DNA of 42,456 nucleotides, taken from Beijerinckiaceae bacterium. GTDB taxonomy: Bacteria > Pseudomonadota > Alphaproteobacteria > Rhizobiales > Beijerinckiaceae. Made by a program: the position numbers and the translations under genes. The stretch is taken from the NCBI GenBank assembly GCA_947372795.1, contig CANBVC010000002.1, forward strand, positions 1 through 42,456. Direction: 5' to 3'. Position 1 is the first letter of the stretch. Every line of letters begins with the position of its first letter. Shown piece after piece: positions 27,689-32,247 of this stretch. The notes below the pieces were generated by a model. It did not search any database and was not told the DNA's origin. It saw only the letters and a list, made by a program, of their open reading frames with translations.

Positions 27689-27763
27689 GCGGGTGTAGCT
27701 CAGGGGTAGAGCACAACCTTGCCAAGGTTGGGGTCGAGGGTTCGAATCCCTTCGCCCGCTCCA
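27689..27763 (+). tRNA. tRNA-Gly (anticodon GCC)
   Basis: The 75 bases fold into a full cloverleaf: acceptor arm GCGGGTG/CGCCCGC (one G-U pair), D arm GCTC/GAGC, anticodon arm CAACC/GGTTG with loop TTGCCAA (anticodon GCC at 27721-27723), T arm GAGGG/CCCTT with TTCGAAT, discriminator T and an encoded CCA. A possible promoter is TTGCAA (27625) - 17 bases - CATATA (27648), which is weak. The 3' end serves as an attachment site for the island downstream. Confidence 0.97.
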
Positions 27764-28063: not shown

Positions 28064-28468
28064 CTATACGGGACTTCGCGTTCTCTTTTCCAGAGCGAAG
28101 TATATTTGCCCCACCTCGGGACTCGTCACATAGGCGAGCTTGTTGCCTAAATTGAACTGCCCGAACCCGATTTCGATCGGGCGATCTGTATCAATGCGTA
28201 CCGTCATTTTTATCGCTTTTGGATATGATTTAGCCTGGTCAAAGTCGATGTCTGCAATAAAGGCGATCCACCGCGTCTTTTCCGCGTCATCCCAACACTT
28301 AAAACCAATCGCATAAGAGCTTTTTTCATCATCGACAGAAACATATGCCGTCTTCTCGTCGGTCATGGGATCCACATCAGGGGAGAAGTCCCAGAGGGCA
28401 TAAGCGTGCTGTATCTGCGCTAAGGACAGCAGCGCAATGAATGAAGCTCTTTTTACGTGTGAACTCAT
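28064..28468 (-). CDS. Small exported protein of unknown function
   Basis: I do not recognise the family. The 134-residue protein starts MSSHVKRASFIALLSLAQIQHAYA, a plausible signal peptide cut near residue 24. The mature part has WDFSPDVDPMTDEKTAYVSVDDE, then FKCWDD and a beta-rich remainder with alternating hydrophobic residues. The 'W...DPMTD.K.A.V' opening recalls periplasmic VasI-like proteins and some phage-encoded exported proteins, but this is only a resemblance. It lies inside the putative tRNA-Gly island with no close same-strand partner. Codon use is more A/T-rich than in the core genes. Confidence 0.65.
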   Translation of the reverse strand: MSSHVKRASFIALLSLAQIQHAYALWDFSPDVDPMTDEKTAYVSVDDEKSSYAIGFKCWDDAEKTRWIAFIADIDFDQAKSYPKAIKMTVRIDTDRPIEIGFGQFNLGNKLAYVTSPEVGQIYFALEKRTRSPV

Positions 28469-28947
28469 CGAAATTCTCCGGCCATTCGGGTGCTTGAGCG
28501 ATCCGAGTTCCTGATGAAGGGATCGATGACACGTTCGAATTTTATCATCATGCAGATACTGGCATAAGCCAATGAACTGGAGGGCTTTAAGCTTTTCCTC
28601 GCTCGACTGCGATATGCCGTACCGAAGCTAAGGTGGCGGGGCGGACCGATGTCGCCCGGAGCGCAAGATCCATCAATGATCGATCAGTGCGGCATACTCA
28701 AGCGAGGAGCGCACATCTGCACATATGAAAGGTCTCGCTGATACCTCACCGCGAGGCTCCGCTGAGTGCTTCCTTCCAGTAGAAACGAATCACGCGATAG
28801 ATGGCGGGCCCGCAGCCTGCCCAAATAAGGCCCGGGCACGGAGAATAGACCGGATCTTCAGAACCGAAAATTGCCCAATCTTATATCCGGGACATTGGGA
28901 ATGTTTGGGTAATCCAGAACTGTCGGAAACATTTCCCGGCTCGCAGA
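28469..28947. other. 479-base region without a convincing gene, with an inverted repeat
   Basis: Short open frames here (for example 28725-28979 on +) show no recognisable domain and no good ribosome site. An imperfect inverted repeat has its left arm at 28596-28622 (TCCTCGCTCGA, then TATGCCGTAC) and its right arm at 28687-28708 (GTGCGGCATA, then AGCGAGGA), enclosing about 65 bases. It could fold into a long RNA hairpin or mark the ends of a lost small element. Confidence 0.45.
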
Positions 28948-29631
28948 TTAGGCGTAGCGGTTTTTGTTCGCAAAAGTAAATTCTATTACGCAGGGCAGCG
29001 AGATATTGTGTACGTTTCGAATCCCACAGCAATTATTTCCATGAACATGCACCACTACGAAATTTTCACTCAATTTATCAAACACCCGCTTTGCCTTTGG
29101 AAAGAAACCCGGATGCGATAAGTTTTCAAGATTATGAAACTCGCAGCAAATCTGAGCAAATTTATTAAGATCAGCAGAAGATGCGTCGTCAAACACATCC
29201 CACTCCGCACCTTCGATATCAATATTCAAAAGCAAATCTGGCGTAGTTTTCTTAGAGAACTCTCTCACCAAGTCAGGCAAAGTTGCGGTGTCAGGCCCCG
29301 CAGCAGTAGCAATCATTTTCTTATGGAAATTTAGAAGCGGATGCGATGATGGTGCGCAGTCGATCGAATGGTCGAACTGCTCAACAGGAATTCCGCGCTT
29401 TGCGACTTCTAAATCCCAGCTATCATTATCGGATATGCCGAATGAGAATGCATGGCTTATATTTTTGAAATCATCTAGCTGAACATAGCCCCCGTCGCCC
29501 GGACTTCCGACGCGGATTTTCTTATATTTCTCAGACTTCACAGGAGCTAGCGGCCGCAACAAATCGAGTATTTTATTTTGTTGCTCTTGGGGAGACAGCA
29601 ACTCAAAGGGCATATCCATATTATTTGCCAT
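28948..29631 (-). CDS. FkbM-family-like SAM-dependent methyltransferase
   Basis: From the ATG at 29631 (GGGGTG six bases upstream) the protein is 227 residues; an upstream in-frame ATG at 29685 would add 18 residues. The diagnostic motif LLNIDIEGAEWDVF (about 134-147) is the FkbM 'DVEGAE' signature. Before it come VGSPGDGGYVQLDDF and AFSFGISDNDSWDLEVAKRG, resembling the SAM-binding half with its glycine-rich loop. FkbM enzymes O-methylate sugars, polyketides or other small molecules. No glycosyltransferase or biosynthetic gene accompanies it, so the substrate is unknown. It lies within the island and is A+T-rich compared with its neighbours. Confidence 0.75.
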   Translation of the reverse strand: MANNMDMPFELLSPQEQQNKILDLLRPLAPVKSEKYKKIRVGSPGDGGYVQLDDFKNISHAFSFGISDNDSWDLEVAKRGIPVEQFDHSIDCAPSSHPLLNFHKKMIATAAGPDTATLPDLVREFSKKTTPDLLLNIDIEGAEWDVFDDASSADLNKFAQICCEFHNLENLSHPGFFPKAKRVFDKLSENFVVVHVHGNNCCGIRNVHNISLPCVIEFTFANKNRYA

Positions 29632-29914
29632 GATTACACCCCAGCAACTTGATGACATCGCCACCGCATCAAGCGGATTGCGCAAGAGGAAGATTAAGGA
29701 TTAAGAGCCCAGACCCTAAGTTAGTAGTTTACCCCTACAATAACGATTTGCCAAATTTCATTAAGAATGCCTCGGGTTAGTAATGGAATCGACGCGGATC
29801 AGCTAAGATTAACGCCCGCTCCAAAGTGAGGGGCCGTTAGCGGGTTCGCCAAAATCACCAGCCAGTAGATTCTTGGTCTCCCGCTCAGCGAGTCCTCTGA
29901 TGCAGCTTCGAGAT
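29632..29914. other. Right boundary of the island, no gene seen
   Basis: This 283-base interval between the methyltransferase start and the stop of the next leftward gene has no supported gene. It contains the second attachment repeat at 29813-29825. The part left of that repeat is A+T-rich and would hold the methyltransferase promoter. Confidence 0.5.
29813..29825 (+). repeat. Attachment-site copy att 2
   Basis: CGCCCGCTCCAAA, identical to bases 27753-27765 of tRNA-Gly and its 3' flank, here without any tRNA body in front of it (the preceding bases are AGATTAA). This is what is expected at the distal end of a tRNA-integrated element. Confidence 0.75.
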
Positions 29915-30832
29915 TCAAGGTTGCGACGCCATTTTCGCAGGTAGGCGCCGTCCGAGCCATTCGACCATGTCTTCGCTTGGCATGGCGTAGCGCCCCTCCT
30001 TCGCATCAAAGCGGATGGTGAACGGTTCCGATCGAGTCGCTTGCGAAGAATCGTCCAGCGCGAAGATTTTTTTTGTACCGGTCTTCCTTTTGAGCGTTAG
30101 CTCAAGCGCATGCAGTCCGCCTTCGCCGGGCTTGAACCCGTAATCGATCCGGTTCGAGGCGCAACTATTGGTTTGGCTGCTATTGCAGCTTTGTTCATTG
30201 CCCTTGTAGCTGATGAAATCAACCATACGCTTTTGCTTTGGGGTAAAGACGCCGCCAACGTGAATAAGCGTCGTCATCTCCTGATCGAGGCCGTTCGCTT
30301 TAAAATTGTCCGTCACCTCCCAGGCATAGGTATCGATGGCGACCTCGACGAAGCGAAAATTCTTTTCCTCGGCAGGCGCCTGACGCGTGCCAAATTCATA
30401 GAGGCCGTCAAGCTCCCTGAACACGAAGCCCTTCTCTTCGCCCGTCGTGGCGAAATGCATGAACATCACGACGCCGGTTTTAAGCGCGCTCGCCTGATAG
30501 TCCTTGCCCGAAATCGCAAAATAATAATCGTTCTTGTCATTGGCGCCGCGCATGGCGAATTTCGCGGGCTGCATGCAAAAGCGCCGGCCACGCGTCTCCA
30601 GCGTCCAGCAACTCGCCTTTTGATCATAGGCGCCGACGGTCTTCATGACCGCAGCCCAGATTTGCTGTTGTTTGCTCGTATCGACGTTCAGCTTTGTTTT
30701 CTTGGGTTGTTCAAGCTTGGGGGCCGGCCTTTCCGCTTCCGCGAAAGCCGCGACGCACGAAAACGCCATGGCCGCGCCTAGCGCTATGGTCAGCAGCGTT
30801 TTGCCGTTGGACCTGTCATTCAAGGAAAACAT
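29915..30832 (-). CDS. Exported protein of unknown function, downstream of the EF-hand gene
   Basis: I do not recognise the family. The 305-residue protein has a signal peptide (hydrophobic LLTIALGAAMAFSCVAAFA, about 12-31) and a lysine/proline-rich start of the mature chain. It then has a folded-looking domain with C75 and C86, NDYYFAISGKDYQASALKTGVVMFMHFATTG, and a second cysteine pair in EQSCNSSQTNSCASNR, suggesting disulfides in the periplasm. The N-terminal CWTLETRGRRFCMQ recalls the cysteine spacing of IalB-type proteins but not enough to assign it. It begins 20 bases after the EF-hand gene stop on the same strand and is likely co-transcribed. Confidence 0.8.
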   Translation of the reverse strand: MFSLNDRSNGKTLLTIALGAAMAFSCVAAFAEAERPAPKLEQPKKTKLNVDTSKQQQIWAAVMKTVGAYDQKASCWTLETRGRRFCMQPAKFAMRGANDKNDYYFAISGKDYQASALKTGVVMFMHFATTGEEKGFVFRELDGLYEFGTRQAPAEEKNFRFVEVAIDTYAWEVTDNFKANGLDQEMTTLIHVGGVFTPKQKRMVDFISYKGNEQSCNSSQTNSCASNRIDYGFKPGEGGLHALELTLKRKTGTKKIFALDDSSQATRSEPFTIRFDAKEGRYAMPSEDMVEWLGRRLPAKMASQP

Positions 30833-30852
30833 ATTTTACCTGTCGTCGTTCT

Positions 30853-32247
30853 TCAGCCCGTGGGCAAGGTCGTATCTGCTGTGCCTGTGGCGACGCTCGG
30901 CTGCGCCACTTTTTGCAATAGCAGTTGGTTCACCACTTCTTGCGTCGTCACATGGCCGTCGCCATCGAGATCCCATACGGCCATGATATCTGCGGCTGAA
31001 GCGCGCGAGCTCGCATCCGGCGATGCATCAAGTTCGCGTTGCAGATCGGCGATGTCGAAATAGCCTTTGTTAGTGAGATCATAGCTGGCCATGATTTGGG
31101 TCGCGCGCTGGGCGGCGTCGACGCCGCTGATCAGTTCGCCTAGGGAGATCGAACCATCCTGATTGGCGTCCCATGCGTTGAAAGACGCCTGCGCCGCGCT
31201 TGCGTCCATATCCGTCGCCACCGCCTGCTCGAATTCATCAAGGCTGAGCACGCTGTTCTTATCGGTGTCGAAGCTTGTGAGCATCGCCTGCGCATAATCA
31301 GCCGCAGTGGGCGTAGGTGCGGTCTGCTGACTAACCGCTCGCAACCCATCGATGAGCTCGGTGCGGGTAAGCGCGCCGTTTTTATCCGTGTCCCAGGATG
31401 TGAGCGTATCGCGCGATATGTCGATCTGGGTCAGCTGTGTGTCGGTCACGTTCGCGAGCGTGATCGTGGGATCTGTGCCGGAAAGGGCGTTTTGCGCAGT
31501 CTCACCCATCTGCGCCAGCATGGCGTCGGCCGTATCCATGATGGTGAAGACCGATACGATTTCGTCGCGCATGATCCTCCCATCGCCATTGGCGTCCCAG
31601 GCCTGGACGACATTGGCGAGCTGAGAGATGTCGCCAAGCGTCGGGTCCTTGATCCAGGCGCCTGCAATGTCCTCCAGAGTGACATAGCCTTTGTTGGTCG
31701 TGTCATATTGCGCCATCAGGGCGTCCGCGCGTTCGGCCGGAGTTTGCGGGGCCGGAGCCGGGTCCGTGGTGTTGGGGTCGGTCGCTGGATCGGTGGTCGT
31801 TGTGCCGGTCGTGGAGCCGTCTGTCGTGGTTTTTGTCACGGGATCGGGCGTAACGGGGGTGACTGGGGTCGTGGGCGATGGGACGGCGGCTCCCGATAGT
31901 TCGTCCAGCGTAATCACCTTGTCGCTATTCTTGTCGAACGACGCGAACATCTCCGCCGCCTGATATTGGCTAAGCGCGTAATTTTTCGAGAAAGACGGAT
32001 AAAGCGTACAGTCGAAAATGGTCGGCCGCACGCCGGCCGATGTGAAGCCTGAGCTCTGTCCCGAACCCTGGTGGCCCATCAATTGCTCGTTACGCTGCAA
32101 GACGGCGAAGACCTTCTGGAATTCGTCCCCGGTGAGCTTGCCGTCGCGATTGCTGTCGACCTCAGAGGCTATCATTTTCGCCGTGGTCGCGCGCTCGCCG
32201 CTGGAAGCGCTGAGAGCCGCTATAATATTCGCTGCAAAATCAGTCAC
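30853..32247 (-). CDS. Multi-EF-hand calcium-binding protein (nine loops)
   Basis: The 464-residue protein has nine 12-residue EF-hand-like loops: 31-42, 105-116, 182-193, 218-229, 286-297, 327-338, 360-371, 390-401 and 426-437. Best canonical loops are DSNRDGKLTGDE, DANGDGRIMRDE, DANQDGSISLGE and DLDGDGHVTTQE; 182-193 and 390-401 share TNKGY and end in D. Residues about 123-170 are a Pro/Thr/Asp linker. There is no signal peptide, so it is cytosolic or leaves by a leaderless route. The start is GTG at 32247 with GGAGG five bases upstream. It precedes an exported orphan in an apparent operon. Calcium buffering or sensing is inferred from loops only. Confidence 0.9.
   Translation of the reverse strand: MTDFAANIIAALSASSGERATTAKMIASEVDSNRDGKLTGDEFQKVFAVLQRNEQLMGHQGSGQSSGFTSAGVRPTIFDCTLYPSFSKNYALSQYQAAEMFASFDKNSDKVITLDELSGAAVPSPTTPVTPVTPDPVTKTTTDGSTTGTTTTDPATDPNTTDPAPAPQTPAERADALMAQYDTTNKGYVTLEDIAGAWIKDPTLGDISQLANVVQAWDANGDGRIMRDEIVSVFTIMDTADAMLAQMGETAQNALSGTDPTITLANVTDTQLTQIDISRDTLTSWDTDKNGALTRTELIDGLRAVSQQTAPTPTAADYAQAMLTSFDTDKNSVLSLDEFEQAVATDMDASAAQASFNAWDANQDGSISLGELISGVDAAQRATQIMASYDLTNKGYFDIADLQRELDASPDASSRASAADIMAVWDLDGDGHVTTQEVVNQLLLQKVAQPSVATGTADTTLPTG

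Follow-up and report, generated by a model that had tools for sequence, protein, structure and literature searches.

Does a large EF-hand protein that lacks a signal peptide form a calcium-linked envelope system with the exported protein encoded next to it, or are the two proteins separate matters? The question is raised by a locus in a stretch of 42,456 nucleotides (the window; positions 1 to 42,456 of the forward strand of contig CANBVC010000002.1, assembly GCA_947372795.1) from a Beijerinckiaceae bacterium, for which an earlier note had proposed such a two-gene system. Judged from its sequence, the EF-hand gene belongs to a previously unnamed modular family that is nearly confined to the Beijerinckiaceae. 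The explanation favored here is that of a modular multi-EF-hand family, exported by a route other than Sec and folded by calcium, with the exported protein standing apart; taken as a whole it is tentative and falls a little short of an even chance.

The EF-hand protein and its family

Both open reading frames lie on the minus strand where the earlier note had placed them (Table 1). The larger one begins with a GTG at 32247, with a GGAGG a few bases 5' of it, and the start residue is the same in the homologs of the family alignment. Its product contains nine EF-like loops of 12 residues, starting at residues 31, 105, 182, 218, 286, 327, 360, 390, and 426. The Pfam model EF-hand_1 (PF00036) matches the protein in seven stretches with an E value of 3.7e-36 and 120.4 bits, against a cut-off of 25.4. 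With loops of the form Dx[DN]x[DNSG]G...E and a score past the Pfam cut-off, the assignment to the EF-hand superfamily is far beyond chance.

The nine loops and an eroded tenth position make up five EF-hand pairs. The segments around loops 3 and 4 and around loops 8 and 9 are alike, with a local alignment score of 123 compared to 25 +/- 5 for shuffled sequences (z = 19). Other comparisons between EF-hand pairs gave weaker relatedness, with the exception of pairs A and C (z = 0.9). By inspection, no Sec signal peptide is present in the protein or in any homolog used, and no type I secretion signal is obvious at its C-terminus. The nine loops, the Pro/Thr/Asp linker, the missing signal peptide, and the internal duplication with its TNKGY loop had all been described earlier, and each of these observations holds. 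The gene is under purifying selection (dN/dS of about 0.2). The AlphaFold model built with two sequences is unusable (pLDDT 44.1), so the packing of the EF-hand pairs rests on the sequence and on known EF-hand behavior.

Table 1. Features of the locus, in window coordinates
Feature	Position	Strand	Remarks
Single tRNA-Gly(GCC)	27689..27763	+	Edge of variable slot, ~2.2 kb from the pair
Orphan exported protein	29915..30832	-	305 aa; signal peptide ~1-31; Cys 75/86/216/224 invariant
Multi-EF-hand protein	30853..32247	-	464 aa; GTG start; without signal peptide; pI 4.05; one Cys
EF loop 9 DLDGDGHVTTQE	30937..30972	-	Canonical
EF loop 8, Lys type DLTNKGYFDIAD	31045..31080	-	K394, G395, D401 invariant
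EF loop 7 DANQDGSISLGE	31135..31170	-	
EF loop 6 DTDKNSVLSLDE	31234..31269	-	
EF loop 5 DTDKNGALTRTE	31357..31392	-	
Eroded tenth EF position (~aa 246-266)	31450..31512	-	FDPxGTGxI in relatives (family alignment)
EF loop 4 DANGDGRIMRDE	31561..31596	-	Canonical
EF loop 3, Lys type DTTNKGYVTLED	31669..31704	-	K186, G187, D193 invariant
Pro/Thr/Asp linker (~aa 121-168)	31744..31887	-	Length and composition vary among homologs
EF loop 2 DKNSDKVITLDE	31900..31935	-	
Conserved insert TIFDCTLYPSFSKNYALSQYQA (non-EF) separating loops 1 and 2	31957..32022	-	Invariant T76, F78, L82, P84, S85, Y95, A97
EF loop 1 DSNRDGKLTGDE	32122..32157	-	Canonical, in N-terminal module

An alignment of 17 members defines the family. 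The N-terminal module opens with MxDFAxxIL and holds an EF-hand pair split by a non-EF insert (TxF...LxPS...Y.A); after a variable linker come the further EF-hand pairs, and most members have five pairs in all. The composition of the homologs is acidic and nearly free of cysteine. Members from sister genera have variable Ser/Thr-rich N-termini and reach 964 residues, and up to about 15 loops are found in the family. Larger members have gained length by repetition of the block; in G016 the additional copy spans some 144 residues and is identical in 77 of the 133 columns aligned. The homolog of G067 (L057:2825-5398) has a linker with ALTTAQ-like repeats (ALTSTQIGALTSDQIGAM...); no mention of ALTTAQ was found in the literature searched.

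Within the genus, 21 of the 51 genomes searched have a homolog. A profile search with the N-terminal module picked up 25 of the 298 genomes searched in the bacterial family (one false match left out of the count), most of them from three genera, with two further genera having weaker members; outside its own genus, the protein family has strong matches in two genera and weaker ones in two. At the level of the order, a search of 298 genomes gave one other match, which is marginal, Ser/Thr-rich, and from another bacterial family. Two matches to the module were left out as false or marginal, one in G581 and one in a 3318-residue ORF of G305 that is probably a phage tape-measure protein. The closest named relatives are metagenome assemblies of Beijerinckiaceae or Rhizobiales, their freshwater origin being read from isolate names.

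To our knowledge, many-loop EF-hand proteins of bacteria have seldom been studied, and the libraries searched held no functional description of this family, as the earlier note had expected. Two features appear to be new in it: the N-terminal module with its non-EF insert, and a recurring loop with an invariant lysine in a family nearly restricted to the Beijerinckiaceae. The insert and the invariant lysine of alternating EF-hands are defined by sequence and can both be tested.

The recurring loop reads YDxxxKG[Y/W]xxxxD and has its lysine at position 5. This position is normally a calcium ligand, and a lysine that never varies there makes ordinary calcium binding by the loop unlikely. The 32 homologs contain 76 such loops, in which position 12 is always Asp and position 3 is mostly Ala or Thr. 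The window protein has two loops of this type among its nine, and both are probably non-standard as to calcium binding. The lysine may fill the ion site with its own positive charge, in which case a pair containing such a loop would take up one Ca2+ and not two. The canonical loops would bind Ca2+, and calcium-ligand residues are conserved in seven loops of the protein (loop sequences and alignment). In pairs B, C, and E at least, the first loop is a variant and the second a canonical one that is predicted to bind calcium.

Likeness to known calcium-binding proteins

The window protein would be best described as a variant of the multi-EF-hand bacterial proteins that do not use Sec. The closest functional analogue of the family is calsymin (CasA) of Rhizobium etli and its relatives, which has been reported as secreted (PMC9860679, PMC6421345). 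Calsymin and the window protein are both alphaproteobacterial, and both have several EF-hand pairs, linkers rich in Ser, Thr, and Pro, and no Sec signal; probable orthologs of calsymin also share with the family the alternation of canonical and degenerate loops. However, calsymin consists of three similar pairs in 283-292 residues and has neither the insert of the N-terminal module nor Lys-type loops. The identity of the two proteins is about 25% over residues 174-368 (E of about 1), a similarity at the level of EF-hands, while the N-termini differ. Homology to calsymin was rejected, as the sequence similarity does not go beyond the EF loops. The neighborhoods differ as well: probable calsymin orthologs are found with TetR, flgE, and flgK genes, whereas the EF-hand gene of the window has a GNAT gene and the exported orphan as its neighbors. 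On three rhizobial plasmids (L102:2264-4759, L103:2252-4732, and L104:2171-4635), the probable casA orthologs are flanked by a divergent gene of the TetR family and by flgE/flgK.

Two other identities were considered and rejected. The best NCBIfam match of the window protein is XopAW (NF041410, type III calcium-binding effectors), and its 100.3 bits lie below the curated cut-off of 120. The match runs through EF repeats only. The model matches all 17 homologs, some of them with more than 120 bits, and since it also catches a probable calsymin ortholog it is not diagnostic. Several multi-EF-hand proteins outside plant pathogens, the probable calsymin ortholog included, score above the cut-off, and the name of a XopAW type III effector may be over-assigned. 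The other candidate was lanmodulin (LanM), an EF-hand protein of related Beijerinckiaceae methylotrophs. Unlike lanmodulin, the window protein has no Pro at loop position 2, its loops are about 30-74 residues apart, and it has no signal peptide. The loop signature and a LanM score of 17.7 bits (cut-off 135) led to the rejection of this identity and of a lanthanide link.

Inside or outside the cell

Export without Sec of a protein folded by calcium is the leading reading, though a tentative one, at a little under an even chance. The protein starts with a helix and a divergent EF-hand pair that carries the non-EF insert, and continues with a flexible linker and a string of EF-hand pairs. It would leave the cell without the Sec pathway, in a calsymin-like manner, and would fold or become compact on meeting millimolar Ca2+ outside. 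Export is inferred from the analogy with calsymin, the composition of the linker, and the Ser/Thr-rich N-termini of the sister-genus members. Against this reading, no secretion-system gene is a conserved neighbor across the family.

The absence of a signal peptide suits a cytoplasmic protein equally well. Such a protein would stay inside and chelate calcium that leaks in, as do calerythrin and the CabB-type calmodulin-like buffers, which also have paired EF-hands without a signal peptide. The homologs used all lack one, no export gene is a conserved neighbor, and the gene occurs in three near-complete genomes that have no flagellar export, all of which is consistent with a buffer or sensor. 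However, calerythrin has four EF-hands in one compact domain (PMC10574481), compared to about ten EF-hand positions, a linker, and an N-terminal module in the window protein. Also, the long linkers of Thr, Ser, Pro, and Asp (ALTTAQ-like in the case of G067), the variable Ser/Thr-rich N-termini of the sister genera, and the loop numbers of up to about 15 look more like those of extracellular modular proteins. A cytoplasmic role is rather unlikely, at somewhat under one chance in three.

The EF-hand protein could also be a substrate of the flagellar (type III-like) export apparatus, attached to the hook and filament or released through them. In G236, the EF-hand gene follows fliD at a distance of 66 bases. 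The island around them also has genes for ALTTAQ proteins, a GT41/TPR transferase, NeuB, a PseB-like protein, MotB, and MotA, and it looks like a cluster for filament cap, glycosylation, and motor. On three rhizobial plasmids, the probable calsymin orthologs are directly upstream of flgE and flgK. This neighborhood suggests a flagellar link for calsymin and hints at how calsymin-like proteins may exit the cell; no paper in the literature searched joins secreted calcium-binding EF-hand proteins of Rhizobium with flagellar type III export. Outside the genus, each of the 14 EF-positive genomes has FlhA, and in the aflagellate G066 the EF-hand frame is disrupted near codon 13. The adjacency to fliD, however, was seen in one genome only, and there is no clear enrichment of FlhA with the gene, either in the family (22 of 25 EF-positive genomes against 210 of 272) and in the genus (16 of 21 against 20 of 30). 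G062, G066, and G067 (99-100% complete) carry the gene without FlhA or flagellin, and in G062 and G067 it is intact. Because the gene persists in three complete genomes that lack flagella, and because FlhA does not clearly track it, general flagellar export was demoted to a minority hypothesis and is improbable.

A wider version of this idea, in which the large signal-less EF-hand proteins of alphaproteobacteria (this family and calsymin) are convergent, calcium-folded cargo of flagellar export and the lysine-plugged loops set the number of Ca2+ ions that a pair binds, is a slightly longer shot still. If it were true, lineages without flagella would be losing or re-routing the EF-hand protein.

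Some further observations concern these genomes. The genome of G066 is complete, and its frame break (L052:8850-8936) may reflect either decay of the gene or an error in the assembly. The C83 island of G236 (L105:163-20000, L106) encodes two ALTTAQ-repeat proteins (one of more than 3000 residues), TPR proteins, and two MotB-like proteins. G000 has one FHIPEP protein by a search for the FlhA family, and it could belong to a flagellum or to an injectisome.

The exported protein and the shared slot

Unlike the EF-hand protein, the exported protein has an apparent Sec signal in its first 31 or so residues. The two cysteine pairs that had drawn attention to it correspond to four mature cysteines, which are invariant in all four homologs. 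Its gene is under purifying selection (dN/dS 0.07-0.22). It gave no matches in Pfam, NCBIfam, PHROGs, or the plasmids searched, and a profile search against the PDB returned matches at chance level only. The AlphaFold model built with four sequences, mostly strands, is unusable (pLDDT 42.9), and Foldseek with the protein found nothing at E<=0.001. The protein occurs in 4 of 61 genomes (3 of 298 at the family level) and in four species only. As part of the explanation favored here, and with the same tentativeness, it would be a separate orphan, periplasmic or at the surface, which the EF-hand family does not need.

How, then, did the two genes come to lie together? The spacing of 20 bases on the same strand is as the earlier note had given it, and in the window the two genes are probably co-transcribed, with promoter and terminator scans at chance level. 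The adjacency is seen in G000 and G033 and is probable in G028, where both genes are at contig ends and the pairing would run across a contig break. Elsewhere the genes part company. The exported gene is missing from 17 of the 21 EF-positive genomes of the genus; in G016 and G029 the EF-hand gene occupies the same slot but the exported gene is absent; and in G005 the exported gene adjoins the GNAT gene, the slot retains no trace of an EF-hand gene, and a divergent EF-hand homolog is on another contig. In a tree of four syntenic genes, G000, G028, and G033 group together, G005 joins them next, and G016 and G029 fall outside. The simplest history is that the EF-hand gene was in the slot before this clade arose, that the exported gene was inserted in the ancestor of the clade, and that the slot copy of the EF-hand gene was lost in G005.

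Of the operon proposed earlier, the close packing is supported and the two-gene system is not, as each gene occurs without the other. Co-occurrence, a check named beforehand, largely failed (EF-hand gene in 21 of 51 genomes, exported gene in 4 of 61, each seen alone). An obligate system was rejected for this reason, and one dedicated system of any kind, though it would agree with the spacing, with the synteny in G000 and G033 and probably G028, and with purifying selection on both genes, is the least probable of the readings, at about one chance in ten by our estimate.

The slot is bordered by GNAT and pyrophosphatase genes on one side and by tRNA-Gly and thioredoxin genes on the other. The tRNA island reported beside the pair turned out to be one tRNA. 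Since the slot holds unrelated genes, such as one for an FkbM-type methyltransferase (28948-29685) and orphan exported ORFs (one of 134 residues at 28064-28468), it amounts to a tRNA-adjacent variable region. The contents of the part beside tRNA-Gly (28064-29685) differ among the relatives examined.
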